NCBI RefSeq assembly: GCF_000219725.1
Contig: NC_015732.1
Span: 682,001 to 746,000, forward strand
Direction: 5' to 3'
Source: Gracilinema caldarium DSM 7334
Lineage (GTDB): Bacteria > Spirochaetota > Spirochaetia > Treponematales > Breznakiellaceae
Length of the DNA stretch: 64,000 nt
Positions within the stretch are counted from its first letter, which is position 1. Each line of letters begins with the position of its first letter. Shown one piece after another: positions 1,865 to 21,712 of the stretch. Position numbers and translations under genes: made by a program. The notes under the pieces are model-generated. The model had not been told where the DNA came from. It saw only the letters and a program-made list of their open reading frames with translations, and made no database searches.

Positions 1865-1918
1865 ATACTAATCCTCCTGATGAGCTGAATACAGCGCAAT
1901 TGTTGATGTTTCATAATT

Positions 1919-1995
1919 AGTATATCATATAATAAATTAAAAATGAACCATCGTTTCAAAAAAATATTGACGAAAATTTGATATCCGTATACTAT
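1919..1995. promoter_or_regulatory. Divergent eda/kdgK promoters sharing a KdgR-like operator
   Basis: On the minus strand TTCATT (1942-1947) and TATACT (1919-1924), 17 bases apart, fit an eda promoter. On the plus strand TTGACG (1967-1972) and TACTAT (1990-1995), 17 bases apart, fit a kdgK promoter. Between and overlapping them is the dyad TGAACCATCGTTTCA at 1944-1958, one mismatch from TGAAA-N5-TTTCA. A repressor bound there would cover the eda -35 box and sit 8 bases from the kdgK -35 box. The boxes are seen; the regulation is inferred. Confidence 0.6.
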
Positions 1996-2046
1996 AAAAG
2001 AAACTTACTAATTATTTTGTTAATATTGATGAAAGGAGGCTCTTAT

Positions 2047-3084
2047 ATGGCCCATACCATTGTTACCTTTGGTGAAATAATGCTTCGTTTAAAAACTCCT
2101 GGGCATGAACGTTATTTTCAAACACCAATGTTTGAGGCTACTTTTGGTGGTGGTGAAGCTAATGTTGCTGTATCACTTGCGCATCTTGGTGAGCAAGCCC
2201 TATTTGTTACTGCAGTTCCTTCAAATCCGATTGGTGAAGGGGCTATTAGAGAGTTGCGAAAATATGGTGTGAATGTTGAGCATATAAAGAAAACTGCTGG
2301 CCGAATGGGTATTTACTTTTTAGAAACTGGTGCGAATCAGCGGCCAAGTAATGTGGTATATGATCGAGATCATTCATGTATATCTCATGTTATGCCTCAA
2401 GATTTTCCATGGAAAGATATTCTTAACAAGGCAAATTGGTTTCATATTACTGGTATTACTCCTGCCCTTTCGCAATCTGCTGCGGATACAGCCTTAACAG
2501 CGGTTCAGGAAGCAAAAGCCGCCGGTGCAACCGTTTCGTTGGATTTAAATTATCGGAAAAAGCTGTGGAACTATGGGAAAAAAGCATCTGAGGTGATGCG
2601 TGAAATAACTAGTTATATTGATGTTCTCATTGCAAACGAAGAAGACATACAGCGCTGTCTTGGAATTACTATGGGTAACATTGATATAACGAACGGATCT
2701 TTAGACATAGAATATTATAAAAAATTAGGATCGGCTGTTTTACAAGATTTCCCTCAAATATCTGTTATAGCTATAACATTACGAGAAAGCCATTCTGCAG
2801 ATTATAATGGATGGTCTGGGCTTTTAATTTCAAAAGAGTGTGTAGCGGTTTCTCGGAAATATGAAATAACCGATATAATTGACCGAGTTGGAGGCGGTGA
2901 TAGTTTTGCTGCAGGTCTTATCTATGGAATGTTACATTTTCCTGAAGATAAAGAACACATTATCAATTTTGCAGCAGCTGCATCAGCTCTTAAACATTCT
3001 ATACCCGGTGATTTTAACCTTGCGAGTCTTTCAGAAATTGAAGCACTCATGAAAGGAGACGGTTCTGGAAGAGTCCAGAGATAA
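2047..3084 (+). CDS. kdgK: 2-keto-3-deoxygluconate kinase (PfkB family)
   Basis: This is a ribokinase/PfkB-fold sugar kinase of 345 residues that phosphorylates KDG to KDPG, the substrate of the divergent aldolase. The N-terminal TFGEIMLRL, the glycine-rich FGGGEANVAVSLAHLG and the C-terminal DRVGGGDSFAAGL (catalytic base about D285 in the GGGD anion hole) are all present. The start is placed at ATG 2047, preceded by AAAGGAGG; an upstream TTG at 1978 lies inside the promoter. It is the first gene of a kdgK-kduI-kduD unit. KDG rather than another ketose is inferred from the neighbours. Confidence 0.9.
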   Translation: MAHTIVTFGEIMLRLKTPGHERYFQTPMFEATFGGGEANVAVSLAHLGEQALFVTAVPSNPIGEGAIRELRKYGVNVEHIKKTAGRMGIYFLETGANQRPSNVVYDRDHSCISHVMPQDFPWKDILNKANWFHITGITPALSQSAADTALTAVQEAKAAGATVSLDLNYRKKLWNYGKKASEVMREITSYIDVLIANEEDIQRCLGITMGNIDITNGSLDIEYYKKLGSAVLQDFPQISVIAITLRESHSADYNGWSGLLISKECVAVSRKYEITDIIDRVGGGDSFAAGLIYGMLHFPEDKEHIINFAAAASALKHSIPGDFNLASLSEIEALMKGDGSGRVQR

Positions 3085-3094
3085 TAATAGGAGC

Positions 3095-3109
3095 TGAAAC
3101 AGAGTTTCT
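3095..3109. promoter_or_regulatory. KdgR-like operator dyad before kduI
   Basis: TGAAACAGAGTTTCT contains the perfect dyad GAAAC-AGA-GTTTC in the 39-base gap between kdgK and kduI. It matches TGAAA-N5-TTTCA at 9 of 10 fixed positions and ends 14 bases before the kduI start. It may be an internal operator. As RNA it could also form a small hairpin next to the AAGGAG ribosome-binding site. Confidence 0.5.
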
Positions 3110-3123
3110 ATAAGGAGAAAAAT

Positions 3124-3960
3124 ATGCAATTTGATATTCGCTATGCAAATCATCCAGAAGATGCAAAACAGTATGATACAAAAGCACAACGAAAACATTT
3201 TCTGGTCGAGCAAGTTTTTACCCCAGGAGAGCTACGGATGACCTATAGCCATCAGGATAGGCTTATATTTGGTGGTGCAATGCCAATTGAAAAACCGTTG
3301 GAACTTGAAGCGGATAAAGAGTTGGGCACCACCTATTTTCTTGAACGTAGAGAGCTGGGACTCATCAATATAGGTGGCCCTGGGCGACTTGTCATCGATG
3401 GAGCAGTCTATGATCTTACAAAAAGCGAAGGCGCTTATGTCGGAATGGGAACCCAGTATGTTCGTTTTGAATCCAAAGATCCTACAAACCCTGCAAAATG
3501 GTATATGGCCAGTGCCCCGGCTCATCAAACCTATCCTACGGTTACCATTAACTTACATCAGGCTAATCCCAAAAAATTGGGGAGTTCTGAAACAAGTAAT
3601 GAACGGACGATTTATCAGTATGTCCATCCTGCGGTCTGTAAAAGCTGTCAGCTTGTTATGGGGATGACTATTCTTTCCAAAGGAAGTGTGTGGAATACGA
3701 TGCCCTGTCATACCCATGAACGCAGGATGGAAGCTTATTTTTATTTTGATATGGAACAGGATACACGGGTTTTCCATTTCTTTGGTCGTCCTGAGGAAAC
3801 GAGGCATCTAGTTGTAGCCAATGAACAGGCTGTAATTTCACCAAGCTGGTCCATCCATTCTGGGGTTGGAACTGCCTCGTATACATTCATTTGGGCAATG
3901 GCTGGGGAAAATCAGACCTTTGATGATATGGATTTTGTAAAGCCGGAAGATTTGAAATAG
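3124..3960 (+). CDS. kduI: 5-keto-4-deoxyuronate isomerase
   Basis: KduI converts 5-keto-4-deoxyuronate (DKI), released after pectate-lyase digestion, to 2,5-diketo-3-deoxygluconate. The protein has 278 residues, the normal length. The cupin metal-binding motif PCHTHERRMEAYFYF supplies H196, H198 and E203, and the C-terminal SPSWSIHSGVGT supplies the fourth histidine, matching the zinc ligands of the E. coli enzyme. The start has an AAGGAG site 6 bases upstream. It is followed 9 bases later by kduD, which takes the next step. Confidence 0.96.
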   Translation: MQFDIRYANHPEDAKQYDTKAQRKHFLVEQVFTPGELRMTYSHQDRLIFGGAMPIEKPLELEADKELGTTYFLERRELGLINIGGPGRLVIDGAVYDLTKSEGAYVGMGTQYVRFESKDPTNPAKWYMASAPAHQTYPTVTINLHQANPKKLGSSETSNERTIYQYVHPAVCKSCQLVMGMTILSKGSVWNTMPCHTHERRMEAYFYFDMEQDTRVFHFFGRPEETRHLVVANEQAVISPSWSIHSGVGTASYTFIWAMAGENQTFDDMDFVKPEDLK

Positions 3961-3969
3961 GATTTTGAT

Positions 3970-4740
3970 ATGGTTGATAGTATACAACAGTTTCGTCTTG
4001 ATGAAAAGGTTGCCCTTGTAACGGGTTGTAATCGGGGACTTGGTCAGGCTATGGCAATAGCTCTAGCTCAGGCTGGTGCTGATATTATTGGTGTGAGTGC
4101 ATCACCTGATGCAAGAGAAACAGAAGGTATGGTGACCAATACGGGTCGCCGTTTTATCTACATTTCTGCAGATTTACGAAGTACACAGCCGATTCCATAT
4201 ATCATGGATAAGGCAATACAAGGATTGGGTAAGATTGATATTCTTGTTAATAATGCAGGTATTATTAAAAGAAATGATGCACTTGCTTTTTTGGAATCTG
4301 AGTGGGATGAAGTAATTAATCTGAATCTGAAAACGGTTTTCTTTTTAAGTCAGGCTGCGGCAAGGTTTTGGGTGGAGCATAAGTCTAAAGGAAAAATCAT
4401 CAATGTTGCCAGTATGCTGAGTTTCCAGGGTGGAATTCGTGTTCCCTCCTATACTGCAAGCAAAAGCGGTATCCGTGGACTAACGATGGCATTATCTAAT
4501 GAATGGGCTAAATACGGGATTAATGTAAATGCTATTGCTCCGGGGTATATGGCTACAGATAACACGGAAGCGCTCAGAAAAGATCCGCAACGAAGTCAGG
4601 AAATTTTAGCTCGTATTCCTGCTGGCCGATGGGGTGATGCATCGGATCTAGCAGGGGCGGTTGTATTCCTTGCTTCCCAAGCCTCGGATTATGTTCATGG
4701 TCATACATTAGCGGTTGATGGTGGGTGGTTGGGACGGTAA
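3970..4740 (+). CDS. kduD: 2-deoxy-D-gluconate 3-dehydrogenase / 2,5-diketo-3-deoxygluconate reductase (SDR)
   Basis: A classical short-chain dehydrogenase of 256 residues that reduces 2,5-diketo-3-deoxygluconate to KDG. Visible are the cofactor motif TGCNRGLG (18-25), NNAG (94-97), catalytic S148 and the YTASK pair Y161/K165. The order kdgK-kduI-kduD gives the whole route from DKI to KDPG in one operon. It is convergent with the IclR gene, with only 7 bases between stops. Assignment to KduD rather than another SDR rests partly on context and on the phrase IIKRNDALAF, common in KduD proteins. Confidence 0.93.
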   Translation: MVDSIQQFRLDEKVALVTGCNRGLGQAMAIALAQAGADIIGVSASPDARETEGMVTNTGRRFIYISADLRSTQPIPYIMDKAIQGLGKIDILVNNAGIIKRNDALAFLESEWDEVINLNLKTVFFLSQAAARFWVEHKSKGKIINVASMLSFQGGIRVPSYTASKSGIRGLTMALSNEWAKYGINVNAIAPGYMATDNTEALRKDPQRSQEILARIPAGRWGDASDLAGAVVFLASQASDYVHGHTLAVDGGWLGR

Positions 4741-4747
4741 AGTTGTC

Positions 4748-5509
4748 TTACGAGAGGTAGCCAAGGATGCGACTTAGTTCCATGGCAGCCCCTCGTATTT
4801 CTTTAATATTACTTTCTAGTTGTTCAGTGGAAAAGCGAAAAACTGGCCAGGAAACACTGACTGCTGCAACAATTTCGTTAGAAGAATCGAAAATCGGTGC
4901 TGCGATGCAGGTTATCCCTTCTTCATGTTCTTCCCGATCTTGAGCAAATCCATTATTACGAATATTCACTAACTCTGAAAGAAGTTGCTTTTTAGCTTTT
5001 ATGGTATGGGGGGTAAAGGGAACCAATTTTAATTCTTGCATTATTTGTTTTTGTTTTTTTTCTTCCATATAAGCTAAAAGAACTTTTCCAATAGCGGTGC
5101 AATAGAGGGGGATATGTTTACCAACCCTGGAATACATACGTATTGTGTATCGAGATTCAATCTTTACAACATACAGAGCTTCATTCTCATCGAGTATACC
5201 CATGTGAACTGTTTCACCCAGTCTTTCTGATAATTTTTCACATATTGGTCTGGCAACAATCGGTAACTGGATATGATCTAGTGCACGGGATCCTACAGAA
5301 AATAACTTCATTGTGAGGAACCAACGGTCTCCTTCATCCTTTTTGACATATCCAAGCTCTTTTAATGTCATCAGGAAACGATACACCGTTGGTTTAGCTA
5401 TATGGCTTGTACGGGCAAGATTCTCTAAACTTGTACTTGAAACTTGAGACAGTTGTTCCAGAATCTTAAAAGTCCGTTCGACCGCACTTATATTTTTTAA
5501 GTTTGCCAT
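4748..5509 (-). CDS. IclR-family transcriptional regulator, KdgR-like
   Basis: This 253-residue protein has an N-terminal winged helix-turn-helix (about 8-65, with SLENLARTSHIAKPTVYRFL) and a C-terminal GAF-like IclR effector domain. The latter includes VHMGILDENEALYVVKIE and the signature GITCIAAPIFD. KdgR proteins of pectin-degrading bacteria belong to this family and respond to KDG. The start overlaps the uxaC stop by 13 bases, implying translational coupling. Three TGAAA-N5-TTTCA-like dyads in this region, similar to the known KdgR operator, make a KdgR role likely; the effector is inferred. Confidence 0.9.
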   Translation of the reverse strand: MANLKNISAVERTFKILEQLSQVSSTSLENLARTSHIAKPTVYRFLMTLKELGYVKKDEGDRWFLTMKLFSVGSRALDHIQLPIVARPICEKLSERLGETVHMGILDENEALYVVKIESRYTIRMYSRVGKHIPLYCTAIGKVLLAYMEEKKQKQIMQELKLVPFTPHTIKAKKQLLSELVNIRNNGFAQDREEHEEGITCIAAPIFDSSNEIVAAVSVSWPVFRFSTEQLESNIKEIRGAAMELSRILGYLS

Positions 5510-6933
5510 CCTTCAAAATACTCCTTTGCATTTCTAAAAGCTATGTTCTGAACAATCGATGATAACAATCTTCGGTCGCTTGGAATTTCACCATCCTCTA
5601 CCCATTGTCCCAACATGTTACAGAGTATACGGCGAAAGTATTCATGTCGGGGATAGGAAAGGAAGCTTCGTGAATCGGTAAGCATGCCAACAAAACGCGG
5701 TAACAGACCAAGATTCCCAAGAACTCGCATCTGTTCTTCCATACCATCCCTGTGATCACAGAACCACCAGGCTGAACCAAACTGGATTTTACCAGGAATT
5801 TCATCACCCTGGAAGCACCCCATAAGGGTTCCAATGGTATAATAGTCCTTTGGATTTAAGCTATAGAGTATTGTTTTGGGCAAGTTATTATGTTGATCCA
5901 TCAAATCGAGCAAGCCAGATAAATTTGCCGCTACTGGATGATCATGAACCGCATCAAAACCTGTATCTGGTCCAAACTGTATAAAACGCCTGCTATTGTT
6001 GTTACGAAGGGCTGCAAGATGTAATTGCATAACCCAACCTCGTTTTTTATATGCTTTCCCAAGATAAACGAGGATGAATGTCCGATAACGATCAGTTTCT
6101 TCTATGGTGAGTTTTTCACCTGTCATAGCTTTCTTAAATATTGTATCAACCTCATTTTCCCACAGTGATCCAACGGTTCCGTTAGTTGCTAATGTAAAGG
6201 GCGGGTATTCAAGTGCATGATCCGAAGCCCTGCAGCCAAGCTTATTAAAATGATCCATCCGTTTTTCAAGAGCCGAAAGAAGATCCGTAAGATTGGTAAT
6301 CGAAATTCCAGCAGCTTTCCCAAGCTGTTGAATATAATCAGCAAATCCTTTCTGATGACAATGTATAGCCTTGTCGGGTCTAAAAGAAGGAAGTACTTTA
6401 GTTGTTGTTTGTTTCTCTTGTTGAAGGACCGCGTGCCATTCTAAACTGTCCGCAGGATCATCGGTAGTACCTACAGCGTATACATTGAACTTTTTAAAAA
6501 TACCAAACACTGAGAGTTCAGAATTTTCTTTAAGAGCCTGATTAGCCTTTTCCCAAATTTGTAGTGCTGTTGCTTCATCCAACGGTTCTGTGATGCCAAA
6601 ATAGCGCTGTAATTCTAAATGAGTCCAATGATAAAGAGGATTCCCGATTGTTTGTGGAATAGTTCTCGCCCAGGCAAGAAATTTTTCGTAATCAGGCGTA
6701 TCGCCGGTTATATATCGCTCGTCAATTCCATTCGAACGCATTGCCCGCCACTTATAATGATCACCACCAAGCCATATTTGGGTAATGTTGGTAAACCTTC
6801 GATTTTCTGCAATTTCTCGTGGATTTAAATGGCAATGATAATCAAAAATAGGTTCTTGACTTGCTACCTCATGATATAACCATCGGGCTGTTTTAGTTTG
6901 TAATAAAAAATCCTTGTTCATAAAATGTTTCAT
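5497..6933 (-). CDS. uxaC: Glucuronate/galacturonate isomerase
   Basis: UxaC interconverts D-galacturonate and tagaturonate, or D-glucuronate and fructuronate. The 478-residue length is normal for this amidohydrolase-fold family. Visible are the metal-site region DYHCHLNPREIAENR near the N-terminus, WLGGDHYKWRAMR, and the C-terminal MLTDSRSFLSYPRHEYFRR. An AGGAGG site precedes the start. It is the middle gene of a BASS transporter-uxaC-IclR operon. No uxaA, uxaB, uxuA or uxuB is in the window, so the product must be handled by genes elsewhere. Confidence 0.96.
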   Translation of the reverse strand: MKHFMNKDFLLQTKTARWLYHEVASQEPIFDYHCHLNPREIAENRRFTNITQIWLGGDHYKWRAMRSNGIDERYITGDTPDYEKFLAWARTIPQTIGNPLYHWTHLELQRYFGITEPLDEATALQIWEKANQALKENSELSVFGIFKKFNVYAVGTTDDPADSLEWHAVLQQEKQTTTKVLPSFRPDKAIHCHQKGFADYIQQLGKAAGISITNLTDLLSALEKRMDHFNKLGCRASDHALEYPPFTLATNGTVGSLWENEVDTIFKKAMTGEKLTIEETDRYRTFILVYLGKAYKKRGWVMQLHLAALRNNNSRRFIQFGPDTGFDAVHDHPVAANLSGLLDLMDQHNNLPKTILYSLNPKDYYTIGTLMGCFQGDEIPGKIQFGSAWWFCDHRDGMEEQMRVLGNLGLLPRFVGMLTDSRSFLSYPRHEYFRRILCNMLGQWVEDGEIPSDRRLLSSIVQNIAFRNAKEYFEGWQT

Positions 6934-6957: not shown

Positions 6958-7914
6958 TTATACATGGTAACAAGCTTTTCTTTTTATGAAAATTTCACCT
7001 GCAAAGGATGCAAGGCTTTGTTGAAAAATCATCCCAAGAATTGCTGGTAGTGCTGCAGCAGAAGGAAAAAACGCTATCGCAAGGGTTGCGGCGGCACTGA
7101 TATTTCGTAGACCTATAGAAAAAATAAAAGTTGTTTTTTCAGCTTGGGAGACTTTTTCCCATTTACCAGCGACATCACCAAGAAAAAAGCCAAACATGCC
7201 TAATACTACTGCTTGAAAGCCTATCCAGTAGACATTTGGATCGCTCCAGTGTACCTGAGGAGACAGAACCGCACTATTGGCTGCTACAACCATAATTAAA
7301 CATAACTTTGAAACAGGTTTTAGTATAGGATTGATTTGGTTGGGAATTCGTCCATGACTGCTTTCATTGATTATAATTCCTAGAATTGTGGGTATAACAA
7401 TCATTAACATTAGGGAAAAAGCCATATCGATTAATGAAACTGATATGGATTTACCAATCAGCAGATAGATTGTAAGTGGTACAACCAGGGGGGATAGAAT
7501 CGTATCCAGGAGAATAATACTCAAAGAAAGAGCATTATTGCCTTTATTAATACTATTCCAAATAAATCCAGAAACAGCGGTAGGAGTGGAAAAAAGAAGT
7601 ACAAATCCAGCAATATATGAAGAGTTATTTGAATTAATTAGGCTGGTAAAGATAAAACTTACCACAGGCATAATAATATGAGCATTGGTAAAAAAGATGA
7701 TAAGAGACTTTGGTTTTGTAAAGACAGACAATAATTCATTAAAATGCAAATTTAATGCACTAGAAATGGTCATTATCCCAAAAAGAAAAGGAATTGCTGG
7801 ACGAAATGTACCACACACAGAAGAGAATAAGAAACCTATTGCAACTCCTAGAGGAGTTAAGAAAGGCATGTGTGTTTCAAGCCATTGATTGACATGTAAA
7901 CCAATGTTTTTCAT
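6958..7914 (-). CDS. BASS-family (bile acid:sodium symporter-like) membrane transporter
   Basis: A 318-residue polytopic membrane protein with the BASS/arsenite-permease-like fold; I count about nine or ten hydrophobic segments. Family-like stretches include the N-terminal MPFLTPLGVAIGFLF, a middle LLFSTPTAVSGFIW and a C-terminal FSIGLRNISAAATLAI. The start at 7914 is chosen because AGGATT precedes it; an in-frame ATG lies at 7941 and the open frame extends further upstream. It is the first gene before uxaC (24-base gap), and a perfect KdgR-like dyad overlaps its promoter. A sugar acid or 2-keto acid substrate is therefore plausible but unproven. Confidence 0.85.
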   Translation of the reverse strand: MKNIGLHVNQWLETHMPFLTPLGVAIGFLFSSVCGTFRPAIPFLFGIMTISSALNLHFNELLSVFTKPKSLIIFFTNAHIIMPVVSFIFTSLINSNNSSYIAGFVLLFSTPTAVSGFIWNSINKGNNALSLSIILLDTILSPLVVPLTIYLLIGKSISVSLIDMAFSLMLMIVIPTILGIIINESSHGRIPNQINPILKPVSKLCLIMVVAANSAVLSPQVHWSDPNVYWIGFQAVVLGMFGFFLGDVAGKWEKVSQAEKTTFIFSIGLRNISAAATLAIAFFPSAAALPAILGMIFQQSLASFAGEIFIKRKACYHV

Positions 7915-7927
7915 ACAATCCTGAATA

Positions 7928-7971
7928 ATGAAATATAATTTCATAATTAAACATATTATGAGACTTGTCAA
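7928..7971 (-). promoter_or_regulatory. BASS-uxaC-iclR promoter with perfect KdgR-like operator
   Basis: On the minus strand TTGACA (7966-7971) and AATTAT (7943-7948) are 17 bases apart. The palindrome ATGAAATATAATTTCAT (7928-7944) carries TGAAA-TATAA-TTTCA and covers the end of the -10 box and the likely start site, a good position for repression. A second dyad, AAGTAT-N6-ATACTT at 7970-7987, lies toward the divergent regulator gene. Confidence 0.65.
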
Positions 7972-8031
7972 GTATAGGACAATACTTAAAATAACTTGCA
8001 TTTTTCTGAATGTTATAACAATAATAATGCT

Positions 8032-11000
8032 ATGCATAAGGATATTGATAAGATTGCATTTATTCTTGCTAATATTCATTCTGGATCTGCCATATCACTT
8101 TTACCAGCCTTTGTGAAAGAAGCTGAACAAATAAAAAAAAGTATCTGGTTATTTCCCGGTGGTAGAATAGATGCCCCTGATATAGATGAGCGATTACAAA
8201 ATAAAATATACGAAAAAGTAATTAAAGGTTTTGATGGTGTTGTTTCTTGGGCTTCCAGTATTGGTGCCTTTGTAAATCATGAAAAACTCACTGCGTTTCA
8301 TTATCAATTTAATACAATGCCAATAGTTACCATGTCTCATGAGATTCCAGGTATCCCATCGGTTTCAATAGATGCTTATCAAGCGATGTTTCCTTTGCTT
8401 GAACATTTTTATAGATCACATAACATTAAAGAATTTGCCTTTATTCAAGGACCAGCAGAACATGGTTCCGCTCAAGATCGGCTTAAGATGTTTAGAGATT
8501 TTCATGTTAAGAACAATCTATCTCTCAGAGAAGATCTTATAACTTCACCGTATGACTGGTCTGAAGGTGAGCAGGCAATATTAGAATTAATCGATAAAAG
8601 AAAATTGATTCCTGGTAAAGATTTTAAAGCGCTTATTGCTTCTAGCGATTTACAGTTATACCAAGCCATACAGGTATTGCAACGAAGAGGATATGTAATA
8701 CCTAAGGATTTATTGGCTGGAGGTTTTAATAATTCTCTTGAAAGTCAAATAGCTTTTCCTCCGTTTACGACAGTTCATTCACCTATTAAAGAACAAGCTC
8801 TTTTTGCAATTAGAGAGCTTATTAAGCTTGAAAAGATAAAAGAAAAATCATACAGAAAATATTTGCATGGTTCTTTAATAATAAGAAGATCTTGTGGTTG
8901 TATTCCAATACTGGATTCATATAAGAATATAATTAAAGCCAATTATTTGGATTCAGATAATATTAAACATTTAGAAGATTTTATTTTAATTGAATCTCAA
9001 AATTGTATAAAAATTTTAAACGCTGAACAAGAAGAAATATTTGCCTGGATTAATCCTTTATTCGAAAGTTTAGAGAATTCTGTGAAAAATGGAAACACAG
9101 TATTCATAGAATATTTTGAAACAATTCTGGAGCGGCAAATTAATAACGAAATGGATATTTCCAGATGGCAGGAAGTAATTACGCATTTGTTGTTAGCCTC
9201 AGAACAAAAATTAGGTACTATTTTACAAAATAAAATAAAAAAATATTTAGATATTGCAAGAATACTTCTTGCAGAAGCACTTGTTCGATCTCATCAGAAA
9301 TATCAATGGAAAATGGACAAATTATGGATTGTTATACGAGGTCTCGAGCGAGATCTTATAAATATACAAAATCGTAAGGATTTATCATCGATTCTATACG
9401 TTCATCTCCGTGAACTTGGTATTACAAGGGCATATGTAGTCGAAATAAAAACTGATGGTAAAGCCGTTTGTATTGCTGGATTTGATAATTTTGGCCCTCT
9501 TAGTTTAGATAATGCTCTTATTGACCAATCGGACCAAATATTACCAAATCCATTTTTTCAAACTGATCTTTCAGGTGTATGGATAGTAGAGCCTTTAGTT
9601 GCTTCTAAGGAATTCTTAGGCTGGGCTTGTATTAAGGTTGGAGAACCTGTAGCATCAATATATGAAGAAATACGTCATGCTTTGTCGAAAAGTATTATAA
9701 GTTTACGTCACTTAGATAGTATACAGCGTGCTCAAACAGATGCATTAAAGGCAGAAAAATTAAAAAGTGCTTTTTTGGCTAACGTTAGTACAGAACTTTT
9801 ACAACCTCTTGATGTTGTCTCTGAAGAAATAGTAAATATTTTAAAATTACATGATGAAGATAAACTTGATAGCAAAGTTAAAGAAATAAATGAAAAATTA
9901 AAACGACAAAAATCACTTTTGATGGCCTTAATTGAATTATCAAGAGCGGAAGTTGGTGATTTTGATTTTCAAAACAGATATATTACACTATTATCATTAT
10001 TTTCTAAAAATGTTCAAAATCTAAATTATCCAGAGAATTTAAACCCTTTGTTGTATGGTGATGAGGAAAAGTTACTGCGAGCCTTTAATTTACTTAGTTC
10101 TTTTGGGTTAAAAAACGAAATTGAAATAAATTATACTAATAATGGAATAAATATAACATTTCGAAATTATATAGAAGATAAAGAACAGATAAATAAGTAT
10201 GGCTTTGAACTTGAAACAACTAAATTGTTAATCCAAAAAATAATTGCAGGACATGCTGGACTTGTTGAATGTATTCATGATGATACAGGTCTTTTCTGGA
10301 AAATGCGTTTCCCATTCCCTTGCAGTGAAGGTGTAATGCAAACTATAAAAAGTAACACAATTTATATATTAGGAGATTCACATCGATTTGAAAATCTTAA
10401 ACCATATTTATATTTTAATAATGTTGAATATATATGGGTTAATCCAATGGATTTACTTAAAAATATAAATGAGCAACAGAATCCTGGTTTGTTAATTATA
10501 TTTTTAGATTACATCGATAAAGATAATATGTCAATTATATATAATATTTTAAAAAATCAACAATTTAGAAAAATACCATTTCTGCTTTTCCCTAGAACTA
10601 ACGAGCCTGTTTATGTGTGGGATTCTATTGTATCATTACTAGATCAGCATCTAGTTGATAAAAAAGTTGGGAAAAAAATTGTTCTCTATGATCTGAAGAA
10701 AGATATGTCTGATATGATTACTAGTTATTTTGCGAATGATCCGGTAATAGAAATATATATTGTTGATAATAGTAAAGCGTTACATGATTTATATAAAGAA
10801 AAATATAGTTTTGATCTGTTTATCATTCCAGCAAATCAAGATATATATGATCAAATATTTAATTTTATACAGCATACTGTTCAAAATATACCAACACTTA
10901 TTATATGTGATTCGCTTCTTACAAGTCAGATAATTGACCCCATATTAGATAGAGAACGATTATTACTTATTAACGATGGTATATATACTCCTGATGAATT

Positions 11001-11373
11001 TAAAAGTTTAGTCTATGATATTTTATTAGGCTCTCATTTTTTATCTGCTTATACAGGAAGAATGGTAAAGAAAACTGTGTTGTATTTAAATGAGCATTTA
11101 AAAGATGTAATTTTAAGGTGGAAATTAGCTGATTATGTACATATTAGTGAAGATTATTTATCACGTATTTTTAAAAAAGAAATGGCTTTAACACCATGGG
11201 ATTATATTATAAGACTAAGAATACATACATCAAAAATATTACTGAAAGAGACATCTGAACAAATTGCAGAGATTGCCGAAAATGTGGGTTTTTCAGATCA
11301 AGCTTATTTTTGTAGGGTTTTTAAAAAAATAGTAGGCATAAGTCCCCTTGCTTTTAGAAAAAAGAAGCAATAA
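8032..11373 (+). CDS. Large fusion regulator: LacI-type sensor, degenerate histidine-kinase and receiver modules, AraC DNA-binding domain
   Basis: This is a 1113-residue protein with no signal peptide or membrane segment, so it is probably cytoplasmic. Residues 8-290 form a LacI-type sugar-sensing domain ending in IIRRSCGC. A helical linker and a GAF-like part follow, to about 560. Residues 575-650 resemble a HisKA helix pair, but the H-box reads FLANVSTELL, with T587 where histidine is expected. Residues 676-760 are a weak HATPase-like region. Two receiver-like folds follow (about 775-870 and 880-1000); in the second, P933 replaces the phosphoacceptor aspartate. An AraC helix-turn-helix pair occupies 1015-1110. 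Start ATG 8032 is preferred over an upstream TTG. It likely controls the pectin genes downstream. Confidence 0.9.
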   Translation: MHKDIDKIAFILANIHSGSAISLLPAFVKEAEQIKKSIWLFPGGRIDAPDIDERLQNKIYEKVIKGFDGVVSWASSIGAFVNHEKLTAFHYQFNTMPIVTMSHEIPGIPSVSIDAYQAMFPLLEHFYRSHNIKEFAFIQGPAEHGSAQDRLKMFRDFHVKNNLSLREDLITSPYDWSEGEQAILELIDKRKLIPGKDFKALIASSDLQLYQAIQVLQRRGYVIPKDLLAGGFNNSLESQIAFPPFTTVHSPIKEQALFAIRELIKLEKIKEKSYRKYLHGSLIIRRSCGCIPILDSYKNIIKANYLDSDNIKHLEDFILIESQNCIKILNAEQEEIFAWINPLFESLENSVKNGNTVFIEYFETILERQINNEMDISRWQEVITHLLLASEQKLGTILQNKIKKYLDIARILLAEALVRSHQKYQWKMDKLWIVIRGLERDLINIQNRKDLSSILYVHLRELGITRAYVVEIKTDGKAVCIAGFDNFGPLSLDNALIDQSDQILPNPFFQTDLSGVWIVEPLVASKEFLGWACIKVGEPVASIYEEIRHALSKSIISLRHLDSIQRAQTDALKAEKLKSAFLANVSTELLQPLDVVSEEIVNILKLHDEDKLDSKVKEINEKLKRQKSLLMALIELSRAEVGDFDFQNRYITLLSLFSKNVQNLNYPENLNPLLYGDEEKLLRAFNLLSSFGLKNEIEINYTNNGINITFRNYIEDKEQINKYGFELETTKLLIQKIIAGHAGLVECIHDDTGLFWKMRFPFPCSEGVMQTIKSNTIYILGDSHRFENLKPYLYFNNVEYIWVNPMDLLKNINEQQNPGLLIIFLDYIDKDNMSIIYNILKNQQFRKIPFLLFPRTNEPVYVWDSIVSLLDQHLVDKKVGKKIVLYDLKKDMSDMITSYFANDPVIEIYIVDNSKALHDLYKEKYSFDLFIIPANQDIYDQIFNFIQHTVQNIPTLIICDSLLTSQIIDPILDRERLLLINDGIYTPDEFKSLVYDILLGSHFLSAYTGRMVKKTVLYLNEHLKDVILRWKLADYVHISEDYLSRIFKKEMALTPWDYIIRLRIHTSKILLKETSEQIAEIAENVGFSDQAYFCRVFKKIVGISPLAFRKKKQ

Positions 11374-11452
11374 GTACGGAATAATACAAAAAATGGCCTG
11401 CATAATCTTTATCTGACAAACTACATTAAACATCAATATTATGCAGGAGTGT

Positions 11453-12571
11453 ATGGAAGAAATGAGTCTGGATAAAAAAATCATAGAAAACAATGCAATT
11501 AATATTGCAAATACTATGATTGCTGTAAACCCTATTGGCTCCTTAAAATGGAACTATGAGACAGGTTTGTTGTTATTAGCTATTTGGCATATTGGCAAAA
11601 CATTTAATAAGCCTACATTTAATGAGTATGTTAGACAACAAATAGATTGCTTAATTGATAACGAAGGAATTATCAATGGTTATAAAAAAGACGAGTTTAA
11701 TCTTGACCAAATTAATTCTGGTAAGATTGTTCTTGAATTATTTATTGAATCACATGACAATCGATATGAAAAGGCATGTATAACACTTATCAATCAATTA
11801 CATGAACATCCTGTAACTGAATCCGGTGGATATTGGCATAAAAAAATATATCCTTATCAAATTTGGTTAGATGGTTTATATATGTATGGGCCATTTGTTG
11901 CTCGTTGGGGACAAATAACTGGCGATGAAGGCTGTATTGCTAAAGTGTGTAAGAACCTAATTGATATTAAGAATAAGACCTATGACATGAAAAATGGTTT
12001 ATTGCGACATGCTTGGGATGAAAAACGATTTCAGCTATGGGCAGATTCAGTCACCGGCCAATCTCCATATGTTTGGGGAAGAGCTCTGGGCTGGTATTGT
12101 ATGGCTTTGGCTGATGTTTTAGAAGTAATAGGTCGAACGAATGCCTATTATACAGAGTTAATAAAAATATTCCAAGAATTATGTAGGAATATTATAACAT
12201 TTCAAGATCCAAAAACGAAACTTTGGTACCAAATTCTTGATCTTGTAGAAAGAGAGGGGAATTATTTAGAAACATCATGTTCTGCCATGTTTAGTTATGT
12301 TATCGCAAAGGGAATACGGTTAGGTATGCTTGATGAAACCTTGTATATAAAGCATGCAGAAGATGCATTTTTAGCGTTGTCTACTAATAGGATTCGAAAG
12401 GATAATCAAGGCTTTAGCCATCTTGAGGGTATCTGTAAAGTTGCAGGTCTTGGCGGTACTCCTTACCGAGATGGTTCCTTTTCTTATTATATCAGTGAGC
12501 CTGTAGTTGCAGACGATTTTAAAGGTGTAGGGCCTTATTTATTAGCCGCCTGTGAACTAGCAAAACTATAA
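11453..12571 (+). CDS. Unsaturated rhamnogalacturonyl/galacturonyl hydrolase, GH105 (YteR/YesR-like)
   Basis: GH105 enzymes hydrate and cleave the 4,5-unsaturated uronic acid left at the non-reducing end by pectate or rhamnogalacturonan lyases. The protein has an alpha6/alpha6-barrel pattern and the motifs YQIWLDGLYM (catalytic Asp equivalent to D143 of YteR), WADSVTGQSPYVWGRALGWY and ETSCSAMF. It has no signal peptide, so it works in the cytoplasm on imported oligomers. The start is uncertain among ATG 11441, 11453 and 11462; GGAG at 11446 makes the later two more likely. It follows the AraC-fusion regulator on the same strand, 79 bases away. Confidence 0.9.
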   Translation: MEEMSLDKKIIENNAINIANTMIAVNPIGSLKWNYETGLLLLAIWHIGKTFNKPTFNEYVRQQIDCLIDNEGIINGYKKDEFNLDQINSGKIVLELFIESHDNRYEKACITLINQLHEHPVTESGGYWHKKIYPYQIWLDGLYMYGPFVARWGQITGDEGCIAKVCKNLIDIKNKTYDMKNGLLRHAWDEKRFQLWADSVTGQSPYVWGRALGWYCMALADVLEVIGRTNAYYTELIKIFQELCRNIITFQDPKTKLWYQILDLVEREGNYLETSCSAMFSYVIAKGIRLGMLDETLYIKHAEDAFLALSTNRIRKDNQGFSHLEGICKVAGLGGTPYRDGSFSYYISEPVVADDFKGVGPYLLAACELAKL

Positions 12572-12651: not shown

Positions 12652-14055
12652 TTATTGAAGAGTGCAATCAATGATGTTCGATTCTAAAAGATAGGGCTCT
12701 CTCATTTCATTTACTGTAGTGGGGAAGATAACTTTTGTTTGGTTAATTATAATACCGTTTATATTTCGTAATCGGACACCCCTTCCTGAGGCTTTAGGTA
12801 AACCACGATACATAGCTGCAAGTTCAGTAGTCTGAATGTTGATATCATCTAAAATGAACTTGCATTCAGAAATGTATAAATTTTTAATTGGCTGTTCTGG
12901 AAGGCCGACTATAAATGCTGCTGCGGCTCTACAATGTTCTGCGATCAGATGAGAAATATAAATATTTTGAATCTTAGGTGTAGTTGCTGAAAGAGGTTGA
13001 GGATCTAGACTGAATATTGGTGAAGATGATTTTGGTCCGCCGGGACCATAATAGCAATTTACTACAAGGGGGCATAAAATATTTTTCATATAACAATGCT
13101 CTAGTCTTATATTTTCGATAACACCCCCTCTTCCTCGTCGAGTTTTAATTCGAAGGCCCCTATCTGTCTCTTCCATACTACAATTGGTAATTTTGATATT
13201 ATTTATACCACCTGCGGTTTCACTGCCAATTACAACCCCACCATGACCATTTTTCATAGTACAACTATCTATTAGTATATTTTCTGTAGGTCTATTAATT
13301 CGAATACCATCTTCACCTGAACCAGATTTAAGACCAAGGCAGTCATCTCCTACATCAAAAGTACAATTTTGAATTGTAATAGATGAACAAGAATCGATAT
13401 TGAGTCCATCAGTATTAGGAGCTTCTTTCGGATTAATAAAATGTACACCGGTTATAGTACAATCAGAACAGAATGCAAAATGGGTGTTCCAAAAAGGTGA
13501 ATTCTGTAGTGTTACATTTTGCAGTGTTATGTTTTTACAATTAAGAAATTGTATTAAGGGCGGACGGAGAAATTGTAGTTCCCTTCCACCGCCACCAGAA
13601 GGTTGATTTCTATAATCTTTATTAAGATCTGCCAGTTGTAATTCATATGGATATTTAGGATGCGTTCTTTTCTCAGCTTTGGCTTGCCATAGACTGTTCC
13701 ACCATGGTTCACCGTTTCCATCAATATGACCAGATCCTGCAATGGTAATATTCTCAGCCTTGGATGCAAATATAAGAGGGTGCATTGCCCAACATTCTAC
13801 ACCTTCCCAACGGGTCCATACAGGTTTGTATAAACTAAAGTCTGCATTAAATGTAAGTGTAGCATTTTCCTCTATGTATAAATGTATATTCGAATAGAGT
13901 TGCAGTGGCCCTGAAAAGAAAACACCTGAAGTTAATTTTAATATTCCACCACCGACGGATGTAAGTTTTTTTATAGCGGATCTTAATAGGATGGAATCAT
14001 CCTGTATTATATTACCTGTAGTACAATTTTGATGTCCCTGTAGTACAATTTCCAT
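12652..14055 (-). CDS. Polygalacturonase, GH28, cytoplasmic
   Basis: A right-handed parallel beta-helix hydrolase of 467 residues that cleaves alpha-1,4-galacturonosyl bonds. All four GH28 signature motifs are present: NTDG (214-217, D216), GDD (236-238, D237/D238), GHG (270-272, H271) and RIK (302-304). There is no signal peptide, so the enzyme probably trims imported oligogalacturonides or rhamnogalacturonan fragments, as expected beside GH105 and an ABC importer. An exo mode is inferred from cytoplasmic location. It is transcribed away from the ABC operon across a 210-base region rich in CGGAA repeats. Confidence 0.93.
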   Translation of the reverse strand: MEIVLQGHQNCTTGNIIQDDSILLRSAIKKLTSVGGGILKLTSGVFFSGPLQLYSNIHLYIEENATLTFNADFSLYKPVWTRWEGVECWAMHPLIFASKAENITIAGSGHIDGNGEPWWNSLWQAKAEKRTHPKYPYELQLADLNKDYRNQPSGGGGRELQFLRPPLIQFLNCKNITLQNVTLQNSPFWNTHFAFCSDCTITGVHFINPKEAPNTDGLNIDSCSSITIQNCTFDVGDDCLGLKSGSGEDGIRINRPTENILIDSCTMKNGHGGVVIGSETAGGINNIKITNCSMEETDRGLRIKTRRGRGGVIENIRLEHCYMKNILCPLVVNCYYGPGGPKSSSPIFSLDPQPLSATTPKIQNIYISHLIAEHCRAAAAFIVGLPEQPIKNLYISECKFILDDINIQTTELAAMYRGLPKASGRGVRLRNINGIIINQTKVIFPTTVNEMREPYLLESNIIDCTLQ

Positions 14056-14112: not shown

Positions 14113-14224
14113 CGGAAACCTTTTGAACAATTCCGTTATATTTGTACGAGCTTCTGAACAATAAAGAAATATGTCGGAATTGTCCAAAAAACTTTCGGAA
14201 TATTTTTATAATTTAGTATATTAT
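14113..14224. promoter_or_regulatory. CGGAA repeat region before the ABC importer operon
   Basis: Four CGGAA/TTCCG elements lie between the GH28 and permease genes. CGGAA (14113) and TTCCG (14131) face each other. TCGGAA (14174) and TCGGAA (14195) are direct repeats 21 bases apart, two helical turns. ACAATTCCG and CGGAATTGT form a 9-base inverted pair. The last TCGGAA overlaps the -35 position for a TATTAT box at 14219-14224, and there is no good -35 sequence. This is the layout of an AraC-family activator site. Confidence 0.55.
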
Positions 14225-14265: not shown

Positions 14266-15198
14266 ATGAGTAATATGAGTCCATTGGCTAAACATCGAGG
14301 CATAAGCAAACAACTGCGTCGATATATGCCAATATACCTGCTGATGCTTCTTCCTATCCTTTATTTTCTATTATTTAGATATGGTCCCATTGTTAATGGT
14401 CAGATTGCTTTTAAAAATTATATGGCTCTTGATGGTGTTTGGGGAAGTAAGTGGGTAGGATTTGACAATTTTAAGGCCTTTTTTAATTCTTTTTATTTTT
14501 GGGAATTATTGCGAAATACAATTTTTTATAGTTTTGGTAAACTGATTGTTGGAGTACCTGTTGCAATTATTCTTTCTATTATGATTTATGAAACGAACCA
14601 CCCAAAACTAGGTAAAATTGTACAAACCTTATCATATCTTCCTCACTTTCTGTCATGGGTTATTGTTTATGGGATTCTATTAGTTCTGCTTGCGCCGGGC
14701 GATGGTATTGTAAATGATATTATTAAATATTTGGGTGGTCAACCAATAGATTTTCTTACAAATACAAAGTATTTCCCATGGATTGTCATATTTTCTGATG
14801 CATGGAAAGAAATGGGTTGGAGTGCCATTATTTTTATTGCTGCATTAATGGCAATAGACCCTACATTATTTGAGGCTGCTGCTGTCGAAGGAGTCTCTGC
14901 TTTTCAGCGTATTAGGTATATTACTATACCAATTATTTCTCCTGTTATTATTACAGTTGTAATCTTAAGATTGGGAACTGTTTTGGATGCAGGTTTTAAC
15001 CAAATATTTATGTTGTATTCAGTCCCTGTGTATAGCGTTGCTGATATTATTGATACCTGGGTTTATCGTCAGGGCTTACTTGAATTTAGGTTTGGACTAG
15101 CAACTGCAGTAGGATTATTTAAAGGAGTAATTGGTATGTGTATGGTGATACTGGCAAATAATTTAGTAAAGAAAATATCAGATTCTGCAATGTTTTAA
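14266..15198 (+). CDS. Carbohydrate ABC transporter permease (LplB/MalF-like)
   Basis: An inner-membrane permease subunit of 310 residues with six predicted membrane segments. The cytoplasmic EAA loop EAAAVEGVSAFQRIRYITIP, where the ATPase docks, is clear. It resembles the LplB/YteP group, often found with pectin or complex polysaccharide utilisation genes. It starts a permease-permease-binding protein operon. The nearest AAGGAG is 14 bases from the ATG, unusually far. No ATPase gene is in the window, so the importer probably uses a shared MsmX/UgpC-type ATPase. Confidence 0.93.
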   Translation: MSNMSPLAKHRGISKQLRRYMPIYLLMLLPILYFLLFRYGPIVNGQIAFKNYMALDGVWGSKWVGFDNFKAFFNSFYFWELLRNTIFYSFGKLIVGVPVAIILSIMIYETNHPKLGKIVQTLSYLPHFLSWVIVYGILLVLLAPGDGIVNDIIKYLGGQPIDFLTNTKYFPWIVIFSDAWKEMGWSAIIFIAALMAIDPTLFEAAAVEGVSAFQRIRYITIPIISPVIITVVILRLGTVLDAGFNQIFMLYSVPVYSVADIIDTWVYRQGLLEFRFGLATAVGLFKGVIGMCMVILANNLVKKISDSAMF

Positions 15199-15216
15199 AA
15201 AGGAGCCTTTTACAAG

Positions 15217-16110
15217 ATGCCAGCAATGAAACATAAAATTAGATTGACAACAAATGACATGATATTTTATGGGATAATCGATGTATTTATAGTATTTTTA
15301 TTGTTAATTGTGGCTATCCCATTATGGAGCACTATTACATTGTCTTTTAGACCTAATTATTTTATTGGATCTAATTTGGAAGGAATGTTTCTGCCCCCCT
15401 GGAAATGGTCTACCGCAGCATATCATGCATTGCTTGGGAATAGAGGATTTCTGTTAGCTTTTAGTAATAGTTTTAAAATATTATTATTTGGCGTAATCAC
15501 AGCATTGTTTTTTACTGTTCCCATGGCTTATGGTCTTTCAATTCGGCAATTACCAGGCATTAAAATATTTAACATCATGGTTCTCATTCCGTATCTCTTT
15601 AATGTTGGATTAATTCCGACCTATCTGGTTGTTACAAAAGTTGGATTGACTAATAAACTTGCTGCTGTGTTCTTACCTGTTGCTGTAAGTACGTATAATT
15701 TGATTATTATGAAAAAATTTTTTGAAGGTATTCCTGAAGACTTGAAAGAATCTGCTCGAATTGATGGTGCATCAGAATTAACAATACTTTTACGTATTAT
15801 ATTACCTCTCTCTAAACCAATATTGTTAACCATAGGATTATATTATGGGGTATCCTTCTGGAATGATTTTCTTCACGCGTTAATTTATCTAAATGATGCG
15901 AAATTACAACCATTACCGATTTTGTTACGTAATATTTTATTAGCAAGTGGTATGAATGAGTTTTTGGAAGTAAATGCCTTTGGCGAAGCTTCTATACATT
16001 CAATAAAAGCTGCAAGTGTTTTCTTGGCCGCTATGCCAATGGTATTTGCCTATCCATTTATTCAGAAGTTCTTTACCAAGGGGACACTCCTTGGAAGTTT
16101 AAAAGGATAA
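15217..16110 (+). CDS. Carbohydrate ABC transporter permease (YtcP/MalG-like)
   Basis: The second permease subunit, 297 residues, with about six membrane segments and the EAA loop ESARIDGASELTILLRIILP. The C-terminus PFIQKFFTKGTLLGSLKG is typical of the YtcP/LplC group. It follows the first permease by 18 bases with an AAGGAG site, and the binding protein follows 19 bases later. Together they form a heterodimeric pore, probably for oligouronides. Confidence 0.93.
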   Translation: MPAMKHKIRLTTNDMIFYGIIDVFIVFLLLIVAIPLWSTITLSFRPNYFIGSNLEGMFLPPWKWSTAAYHALLGNRGFLLAFSNSFKILLFGVITALFFTVPMAYGLSIRQLPGIKIFNIMVLIPYLFNVGLIPTYLVVTKVGLTNKLAAVFLPVAVSTYNLIIMKKFFEGIPEDLKESARIDGASELTILLRIILPLSKPILLTIGLYYGVSFWNDFLHALIYLNDAKLQPLPILLRNILLASGMNEFLEVNAFGEASIHSIKAASVFLAAMPMVFAYPFIQKFFTKGTLLGSLKG

Positions 16111-16129
16111 CCGTTTTAAGGAGGTAGAT

Positions 16130-17716
16130 ATGAAACGGATCTTATCAGTAATGTTTTGTTTGCTTCTCCTCAGTGCATCAGTTCTTGATGTATTTGCGGA
16201 AGGTCAGAGTGATGGGAAGGGATCAGCAGCCTCAAGTAGTGGACCAATTTCTATTGAACTTTGGTACGGAGCTGCTGTTACCGAAGCAGGGCCGCCTCCT
16301 GCTGATTGGGAAGCTTTAAAAATAATCAAGGAAAAGCTTAATATTGATTTAAAGCTCACTGCTTTACCAAGTAGTACCAGTGATCAGGATGTCAAAATCA
16401 ATACTGCAGCCGCAGCCAATGCATTACCAGATTTGTTCATGGTGAGTCGTGATGTTTGGACTAATCTGATTAAACAGGGCCTTGTTGCACCAGTAGATGA
16501 TTTGTACCCTTTAATGCCTAATCGGACAAAACTGCATTATGATGAAGATAGTAGAGCCTTTACAACGGTAAATGGAAAATCTTATGGCCTCGCAGATCCT
16601 GGTTCAATAGCAAAAAATGAAGGTCTTCTTATCCGTAAAGACTGGATGGAAAAATTAGGACTAAAGATACCGACAACTACAGAAGAATTATTTCAAGTAA
16701 TGAAAGCCTTTACACTTAATGATCCGGACGGTAATGGTAAAAATGATACCTATGGTTTTGGTGCATTTATCGAAACCTATAATTATGAAGAAGGTTTAGG
16801 CCGCCGCTTTGATCCTATTTTTGGAGCTTTTGGCGTTGCTGGAACATGGAATCTTTCTGCGAAGAATCCTGGTCTCAATGTTCGCCGTCCAGAGTATTAT
16901 GATGCCCTTAGTTATGTTCGAAGAATGGTGGATGAAAAGGTTATAGATCCAAACTGGGTCAGCTATAAAAAAGATGATTTCCGGGCAGCATGGAAACAGG
17001 GCCGCTTTGGAATTATGAGAGAACAGAATGCAGCCTTTGCATCAGAATCAAACTATACACCTTTCGACAAAAATTTCCCGAATGGTGAATGGATTGTAGT
17101 AGATCCTCCAAAAGGGCCAAAGGGATATCAAGCTGTTGGGGTATATACTCAAAGCTATCGTATTTATGCGATTTCAGCTAAAGCAATGAAAGCTGGTAAA
17201 GGACCTGCGATAGCAAAATTGTTAGAATGGATGGCTTCAGATGAAGGATACTATTTGTTAGGTTGGGGAAAAGAAGGAGTAAATTATATAATAGGTCCGG
17301 ATGGTGTACCTACAGTCAATGGAATTCCTGATCCTTCAAAAGGTTTCAGTAAACCAGAGATTCAGCCTCTTACTCAGCTACGAAATATGGTATTTTATAA
17401 TAGTGATGTGGAATTAAAATCTCGTTATCCTACATATAAAGCACCTTATTCTGGAAAAACTATGAGTGCATTAACTGTATTACGTGACATGCAAAAGAGA
17501 CCTTGGGTAAATGGTGTTGGATCTGATACGTTACCACCACCCTCTGCAGACTTGAAACGTTTTTATGAACAGGGTGTTGTCGAATTTGCAATTGGTGCCC
17601 GTCAGTTGACTCAAGAAAACTGGAAAGCCTGGCTTGCAGAATTCGATAAACTTGGCGGCCTTGAGTGGGAAAAGGCTGGAATTGAAACTGCAAAGGCTAA
17701 AGGACTTTTAAAATAA
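16130..17716 (+). CDS. ABC transporter extracellular solute-binding protein (LplA/LipO-like)
   Basis: A 528-residue exported binding protein. Residues 1-23 form a signal peptide ending VFA|EG, which looks like a signal peptidase I site; no lipobox cysteine is present, so it is probably free in the periplasm, as fits a diderm. The mature part has the family features DLFMVSRDVWTNLIKQGLVAP and NDPDGNGKNDTYGFGA, the latter a likely calcium-binding loop. An AAGGAGG site precedes the start. A strong terminator follows at 17742. Oligogalacturonide or rhamnogalacturonan binding is inferred from neighbours. Confidence 0.92.
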   Translation: MKRILSVMFCLLLLSASVLDVFAEGQSDGKGSAASSSGPISIELWYGAAVTEAGPPPADWEALKIIKEKLNIDLKLTALPSSTSDQDVKINTAAAANALPDLFMVSRDVWTNLIKQGLVAPVDDLYPLMPNRTKLHYDEDSRAFTTVNGKSYGLADPGSIAKNEGLLIRKDWMEKLGLKIPTTTEELFQVMKAFTLNDPDGNGKNDTYGFGAFIETYNYEEGLGRRFDPIFGAFGVAGTWNLSAKNPGLNVRRPEYYDALSYVRRMVDEKVIDPNWVSYKKDDFRAAWKQGRFGIMREQNAAFASESNYTPFDKNFPNGEWIVVDPPKGPKGYQAVGVYTQSYRIYAISAKAMKAGKGPAIAKLLEWMASDEGYYLLGWGKEGVNYIIGPDGVPTVNGIPDPSKGFSKPEIQPLTQLRNMVFYNSDVELKSRYPTYKAPYSGKTMSALTVLRDMQKRPWVNGVGSDTLPPPSADLKRFYEQGVVEFAIGARQLTQENWKAWLAEFDKLGGLEWEKAGIETAKAKGLLK

Positions 17717-21597: not shown

Positions 21598-21712
21598 TGA
21601 AACAGTGTTTTGAAAAAGTCTGAATAATCAAAAAATTAAACTGCAAAATATACAAAAAGCATCACATCATAAATATGTAGTTATCACACTACACAGATCA
21701 TCTACTGATCTG
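21598..21712 (+). promoter_or_regulatory. Leader of the outer-membrane barrel gene with two dyads
   Basis: TGAAACAGTGTTTTG at 21598-21612 is a weaker match to the TGAAA-N5-TTTCA motif, with a perfect AAACA-G-TGTTT core. CAGATCA-TCTAC-TGATCTG at 21694-21712 is a perfect 7-base inverted repeat 31 bases before the start codon. Either could be an operator; the second could also be a leader hairpin. Confidence 0.35.

Follow-up and report, generated by a model that had tools for sequence, protein, structure and literature searches.

Positions 8,032 to 11,373 of a 64,000-nucleotide stretch of the Gracilinema caldarium DSM 7334 genome (NC_015732.1, positions 682,001 to 746,000 of the forward strand; this whole stretch is called the window, and coordinates are its own unless stated otherwise) hold a single gene on the + strand, encoding a regulator of 1113 amino acids. 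The frame is open from an ATG start at 8032 and has more than 100 full-length homologues. A LacI-type sensor stands at one end of the chain and an AraC-type DNA-binding domain at the other, and genes for pectin use lie alongside.

Domain layout and lost phosphate sites

Two domains of the regulator were matched by Pfam above the cut-off, Peripla_BP_3 at residues 125-288 (E 6.6e-15) and HTH_18 at residues 1032-1110 (E 1.3e-21), the latter supplying the two-helix-turn-helix DNA-binding domain of AraC/XylS regulators; HisKA was sub-threshold (E 0.05), and HATPase_c and Response_reg were not matched. A full-chain AlphaFold2 model, built on an alignment of 30 sequences (mean predicted local distance difference test score, pLDDT, 82.8; predicted template modelling score 0.55), gave the fold order LacI-type, helical linker, GAF-like, DHp-like (541-638), small HATPase-like (645-762), two alpha/beta domains (776-873 and 881-998) and AraC, and residues 541-1005 were also modelled separately (pLDDT 85.6). 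The initial annotation had proposed a LacI-type sensor, HisKA-like and HATPase-like parts, two receiver-like folds and an AraC domain; its sensor, HisKA-like, HATPase-like, second receiver and AraC assignments stand, true receiver homology was not found for the first receiver-like domain (REC1), and the GAF-like domain had been missed.

The sensor (residues 5-288; 8044..8895, +) is a periplasmic-binding-protein-like domain whose top Protein Data Bank matches are LacI-family regulators (for example 9nt4, E 8.9e-13). No N-terminal LacI helix-turn-helix was matched by Pfam or seen in the AlphaFold2 model, the chain beginning directly at the sensor fold, and no transmembrane helix is evident (the highest Kyte-Doolittle 19-residue mean is 1.5), in keeping with the cytoplasmic location first suggested for it. 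An SCGC motif closes the LacI domain (residues 287-290; 8890..8901, +) and occurs as [RK].SCGC in 98 of 106 homologues; it is present also in sensor relatives with other outputs, and a metal, redox or structural role is conceivable. There follow a helical linker (residues about 296-440; 8917..9351, +; AlphaFold2 helices at 314-443) and an alpha/beta domain (residues 441-540; 9352..9651, +) defined by AlphaFold2 secondary structure, to which no Pfam or profile match was found and which is called GAF-like from its predicted topology only.

From residue 541 the DHp, HATPase and receiver folds stand in hybrid two-component order, according to AlphaFold2, structural comparison (VIA Z about 14) and HHalign. 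The HisKA/DHp-like helix pair (residues 541-640; 9652..9951, +) was identified from HisKA E values of 0.0081-0.05, a fold match to DivL and alignment to intact relatives; for the 541-1005 model the best DHp-CA match was DivL (4q20_B, Z 14.3, root-mean-square deviation, rmsd, 3.5, 196 residues aligned), with active kinases scoring level with it (for example 2c2a, Z 14.0). Next come a degenerate, shortened HATPase_c-like domain (residues 645-762; 9964..10317, +), assigned by motif counts and by HHalign to the HATPase of intact relatives (95-97%), the weakly receiver-like REC1 (residues 776-873; 10357..10650, +), assigned from AlphaFold2 topology, and a pseudo-receiver, REC2 (residues 880-998; 10669..11025, +). 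The last was assigned from residue counts, HHalign (93-97%) and a best structural match to the response regulator 2qxy (chain A, VIA Z 14.1, rmsd 2.6, 118 residues aligned over 879-1000). The AraC-type domain (residues 1006-1110; 11047..11361, +) ends the chain. When degenerate and intact relatives were compared by HHalign, both the HATPase and the second receiver were matched at 97%, and the REC1 profile did not match real receivers (3%; 16% for the window's own clade), receiver residues being absent from REC1 already in the intact relatives.

Alignment to these intact relatives bears out the loss of both phosphate sites that had been read from the single sequence. T587 (9790-9792) falls at the H-box histidine (NVSTELLQP against NVSHELRAP) and P933 (10828-10830) at the phosphoacceptor aspartate of the second receiver (LFIIPANQ against LAVLDLMM). 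In the pseudo-receiver the acidic pair is D and L and the lysine position is Asp, so that one of the four catalytic positions compared is kept, and the ATP-binding part, rightly suspected of being weak, has no HATPase_c match and has lost the N, G1 and G2 boxes from the alignment, with D677 and H741 retained. The same boxes and the receiver lysine are lost across the degenerate homologues in an alignment of 106 full-length proteins. Among 101 degenerate homologues, His is found at 587 in three (L051, L052 and L061; L numbers are our labels for homologous loci) and Asp at 933 in ten, but both in none. A nearby histidine and aspartate serving instead had been named as the finding that would overturn the original idea, and no such pair takes over: at a threshold of at least 60% conservation within residues 541-1000 of these 101 proteins, no substitute His or Asp stands at the H-box or the end of receiver strand 3, and the only conserved ones are D677 (100/101), H741 (61/101) and D635, replaced by Glu in the window protein; the first two are positions that belong to the HATPase fold. 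The regulator therefore almost certainly cannot run a normal His-to-Asp phosphorelay: on the alignments it has kept neither the phosphoacceptor His nor the ATP-binding boxes, nor the Asp and Lys of the receiver. It has the DHp-CA fold lacking the phosphoacceptor His that defines pseudo-histidine kinases, without the ATP boxes that may be retained in these, and residues 880-998 are a receiver fold without its phosphoacceptor Asp, as in pseudo-receivers.

Intact, degenerate and excised relatives

Homologues, many of them from metagenome bins, were gathered by searching whole genomes within the family and the phylum and by a scan of contigs, the best 80 of which were spirochaetal going by their titles. 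Judged by its sequence, the window protein is no one-off but typical of a family found across the phylum Spirochaetota; its nearest relative, L043, is 42-43% identical over the full length. No second full-length copy was found in the G. caldarium genome, where the protein closest to the regulator is L002, which has a LacI-type sensor and a different kinase type.

The LacI-to-AraC architecture is shared by three relatives (L057, L193 and L194) that keep all catalytic motifs, and in L057 and L193 HisKA, HATPase_c and Response_reg are all matched by Pfam above the cut-off; a hybrid kinase of working type is therefore part of the family. At the other extreme, the HATPase and REC1 segments are absent from L071, and these and much of the DHp from L069, L073 and L070, while the LacI, GAF-like, pseudo-receiver and AraC parts are kept in all four. 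Such natural relatives fit the original suggestion that sugar binding may be transmitted by conformation alone.

In a tree of the sensor the intact trio adjoins the window clade (support 81/64), and a single loss of catalysis was not rejected (approximately unbiased test, p 0.19). L065 and L066 are nested by their sensor among the dead forms and have a canonical kinase, receiver and HPt with no AraC domain, which suggests that their kinase may have been regained through fusion. The same LacI-type sensor module was seen with several other outputs, namely another type of histidine kinase in L002 (1393-3747 of that locus), the canonical kinase-receiver-HPt in L065 (4760-8371) and L066, and GGDEF in L081 (5204-7435) and L082.

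Selection was gauged from the ratio of nonsynonymous to synonymous differences (pN/pS) pooled over close homologue pairs. It was lowest of all in the AraC domain (0.05), followed by LacI (0.12), DHp (0.13), GAF-like (0.18), REC2 (0.20), HATPase (0.21), REC1 (0.23) and linker (0.25); since every value is well below 1, the dead domains are being maintained in the family.

Predicted operator and pectin genes

The regulator is, as had been noted, encoded beside pectin genes, with GH88, GH28 and an ATP-binding cassette (ABC) transporter operon adjoining. Along the window, UxaC and a transporter come first, the regulator and GH88 next, and last GH28 and the ABC operon, facing away from each other. 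The GH88-family gene (unsaturated glucuronyl/rhamnogalacturonyl hydrolase; 11441..12571, +; Pfam E 1.8e-90) is a predicted target and also follows the regulator in L043 and L044; the GH28 polygalacturonase-family gene (12652..14055, -; Pfam E 6.1e-45) is divergent from the operon of two ABC permeases and a solute-binding protein (14266..17716, +), the commonest neighbour of the regulator in homologous loci. In most of these the regulator directly precedes the permease pair and solute-binding protein, often with GH88, and the same operon, for pectin fragments, is found with intact, dead and excised forms of the regulator. Orthologues of regulator and ABC operon were both present in 36 of 200 genomes of the family, the regulator alone in 5, the ABC operon alone in 3 and neither in 156.

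A candidate operator was found at these genes. Its core, TCGGAAWWGTMCAAA, was first seen on comparing the window with L044 and then in distant loci, and extends to a conserved predicted 27-bp operator, TCGGAAWWRTMCAAWAA-N5-CTGCA, and the "CGGAA region" pointed out initially is real; the simple pattern CGGAA-N8-14-CGGAA was not enriched in the window. The best 27-mer match in the genome, with one mismatch, is ACGGAATAATACAAAAAATGGCCTGCA upstream of the GH88 gene (11376..11402, +). Upstream of the ABC operon lies TCGGAATTGTCCAAAAAACTTTCGGAA (14174..14200, +), with two mismatches to the 27-mer and a perfect 15-bp core, the sole perfect core match in the 3.24 Mb genome, and a third predicted site, TCTGAATAATCAAAAAATTAAACTGCA (21619..21645, +; two mismatches), precedes an open reading frame starting at 21744. 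These three best 27-mer sites genome-wide (11376, 14174 and 21619) all lie inside the window's pectin cluster, and a reversed control pattern of the 27-mer had no sites in the genome. A fourth genomic match (genome position 2265645) was dismissed, lying at a gene end on the opposite strand. Between the divergent GH28 and ABC genes a further core site may lie in inverted orientation (14122..14136, -); it is weak, with two mismatches to the core.

Beyond G. caldarium the predicted operator lies upstream of the ABC operon in most genomes, even where the regulator is on another contig. When a matrix built from non-Treponema sites was applied to other ABC upstream regions (threshold score 12), 41 of 66 reached the threshold, compared to 6 of 330 segments picked at random from those loci (p 6.5e-32) and 3 of 330 shuffles, and all 45 test regions with a best site of at least 10 had it in the same orientation. 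Of 20 promoters of orthologous ABC operons, most of them not adjoining the regulator gene, 15 had the motif, compared to 1 of 20 paralogous ones. The excised L071 retains the operator upstream of its ABC operon, and the intact L193 and L194 have a similar sequence at the same place, that of L193 (GTCGGTAAAATCCTATAGACCGTCTGCA) scoring 9.8, below the threshold.

Several neighbouring features were also seen. A cluster for uronate and 2-keto-3-deoxygluconate (908-6933: KDPG aldolase, PfkB kinase, KduI, a short-chain dehydrogenase, an IclR regulator and UxaC) adjoins the regulator, with no clear operator copy upstream of the genes tested. An SBF-family transporter gene (6958-8079), divergent and upstream of the regulator, is kept in L043, L044 and several Sphaerochaeta loci. 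The open reading frame at 21744-22868 encodes 374 amino acids with no Pfam match and, having a predicted operator upstream, is possibly a member of the pectin regulon. In L044, the sister genome, a different AraC-type gene (about 14700-15560) lies immediately before the ABC operon, and from this position a second regulator may share the ABC promoter. No Rfam matches were found in the window, and its one tRNA is far from the regulator locus.

Proposed signal transmission in the regulator

Taken together, we consider it likely that the regulator is a hybrid two-component regulator turned phosphate-independent, ligand-driven AraC regulator, similar in its logic to XylR. In XylR of E. coli (4fe4/4fe7) a LacI-type sensor drives an AraC domain, and DNA binding depends on sugar without phosphate. 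The G. caldarium chain, as predicted, likewise has a LacI-type sugar sensor and an AraC domain at opposite ends but, unlike XylR, places about 720 residues (linker, GAF-like, pseudo-kinase and pseudo-receiver) between them, and by sequence the AraC domain alone matches XylR. With the hybrid two-component systems of Bacteroides, which have sensor, HisKA, HATPase, receiver and AraC on one chain (PMC11253607), it shares the order DHp, HATPase, receiver, AraC and, by prediction, the control of polysaccharide genes, and L057, L193 and L194 still keep the catalytic motifs; those systems are, however, membrane sensor kinases that phosphorylate, whereas this regulator has a cytoplasmic LacI-type sensor and has lost its catalytic residues. 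DivL of Caulobacter is a pseudo-histidine kinase using the kinase fold without kinase activity (PMC4211667; 4q20). Like DivL, the regulator has a DHp-CA fold with the phosphoacceptor His replaced, DivL being the highest-scoring solved fold. DivL, however, retains its N, G1, F and G2 boxes and responds to a partner regulator, whereas in this family the boxes are gone and the chain has a DNA-binding domain of its own. As in known pseudo-receivers (PMC12632262, PMC4395418; ChxR, PMC3960148), an Asp-less receiver fold is joined to a DNA-binding domain, but here kinase and receiver of the same chain are both degenerate, and the regulator still has intact relatives.

The regulator would on this evidence probably descend from a LacI-sensor hybrid histidine kinase with AraC output, and would now act as a cytoplasmic one-chain transcription regulator, probably turning on genes for pectin digestion. 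The neighbouring ABC transporter would bring in a sugar acid or oligosaccharide derived from pectin, which would close the LacI-type lobe; the change would travel, in the manner of an active kinase, through the GAF-like domain and an uninterrupted, dimeric DHp helix and reposition the pseudo-receiver/AraC pair on the 27-bp operator, which probably has two half-sites. Activation of the ABC, GH88 and GH28 genes, upstream of which the operator would be bound, would follow, direct conformational coupling having taken over from phosphate chemistry as in XylR.

Several points weigh against such a reading. What the ligand is, which way regulation runs and that the protein dimerises are inferences, and the operator was assigned to the regulator through co-occurrence; another conserved factor could possibly bind it. 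The first alpha/beta domain (776-873) is weakly receiver-like, in predicted topology alone. The pN/pS values come from relatives, the window protein itself having none close enough for the test. The excised relatives, which come from draft genomes in many contigs, show that some lineages can do without part of the middle, and on the present comparison middle domains that relay the signal look no different from ones that only space or dimerise the chain.

Alternatively, what is left of kinase and receiver could be mainly a dimerisation scaffold and spacer, with the LacI/GAF-like part and the AraC domain reading the sugar directly and the pseudo-HATPase and pseudo-receivers adding no signal. Excised relatives that keep sensor and AraC without HATPase, REC1 and partly DHp, one of them (L071) with its operator retained, are in favour of this, but purifying selection acts on all middle domains, on the DHp no less strictly than on the sensor, and most lineages keep them, which makes it an unlikely account. 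Quite improbable too is a use of the pseudo-kinase and pseudo-receiver as docking sites for a second input, such as a response regulator or a phosphotransferase system protein, integrating pectin sugar with another signal. The middle folds are conserved, the best DHp-CA structural match is DivL, and partner-binding pseudo-kinases are known (DivL binds DivK~P, PMC4211667; ChiS binds EIIA-Glc, PMC10208484), yet DivL has the N, G1, F and G2 boxes that this family does not, and no partner gene was noticed beside the regulator among the families tested. A cryptic phosphorelay, with a non-canonical residue modified by a different kinase or by acetyl phosphate, or with the protein paired to an intact kinase in a heterodimer, could draw on the His587 of three homologues and the Asp933 of ten; it is very unlikely given that none of the 101 has both, that no conserved His or Asp stands in, that the ATP boxes are absent, that the window receiver keeps a single catalytic position of four and that the genome holds no second full-length copy. 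That the gene is decaying without function, as loss of all catalytic motifs might suggest, is scarcely credible for a 3.3-kb open frame with 42-43% full-length identity to L043, purifying selection across homologues and conserved synteny and operator.

How signals are transmitted by pseudo-kinases and pseudo-receivers is an open question, and the activation of bacterial pseudo-receivers is termed a mystery in a passage of PMC12632262. Full-text searches of the open-access literature found no description of this architecture and no paper dedicated to a pectin-use regulator of treponemes. The phosphate-independent reading, carried to the whole phylum, stands at about even chances: in Spirochaetota a complete hybrid phosphorelay would have become a phosphate-free allosteric transcription factor, possibly more than once, with intact, dead-but-folded and partly excised steps surviving that share one pectin operon and one type of operator as their target, and the dead kinase and receiver would be a mechanical transmission from sugar to DNA. 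The family offers a sensor, dead kinase, dead receiver and DNA-binding domain on a single soluble chain, plus a predicted operator, and its intact and excised natural relatives serve as built-in comparisons, so that shape-only signalling by a two-component scaffold is directly testable. The regulator, its predicted operator and their target genes are candidates for pectin use in treponemes.

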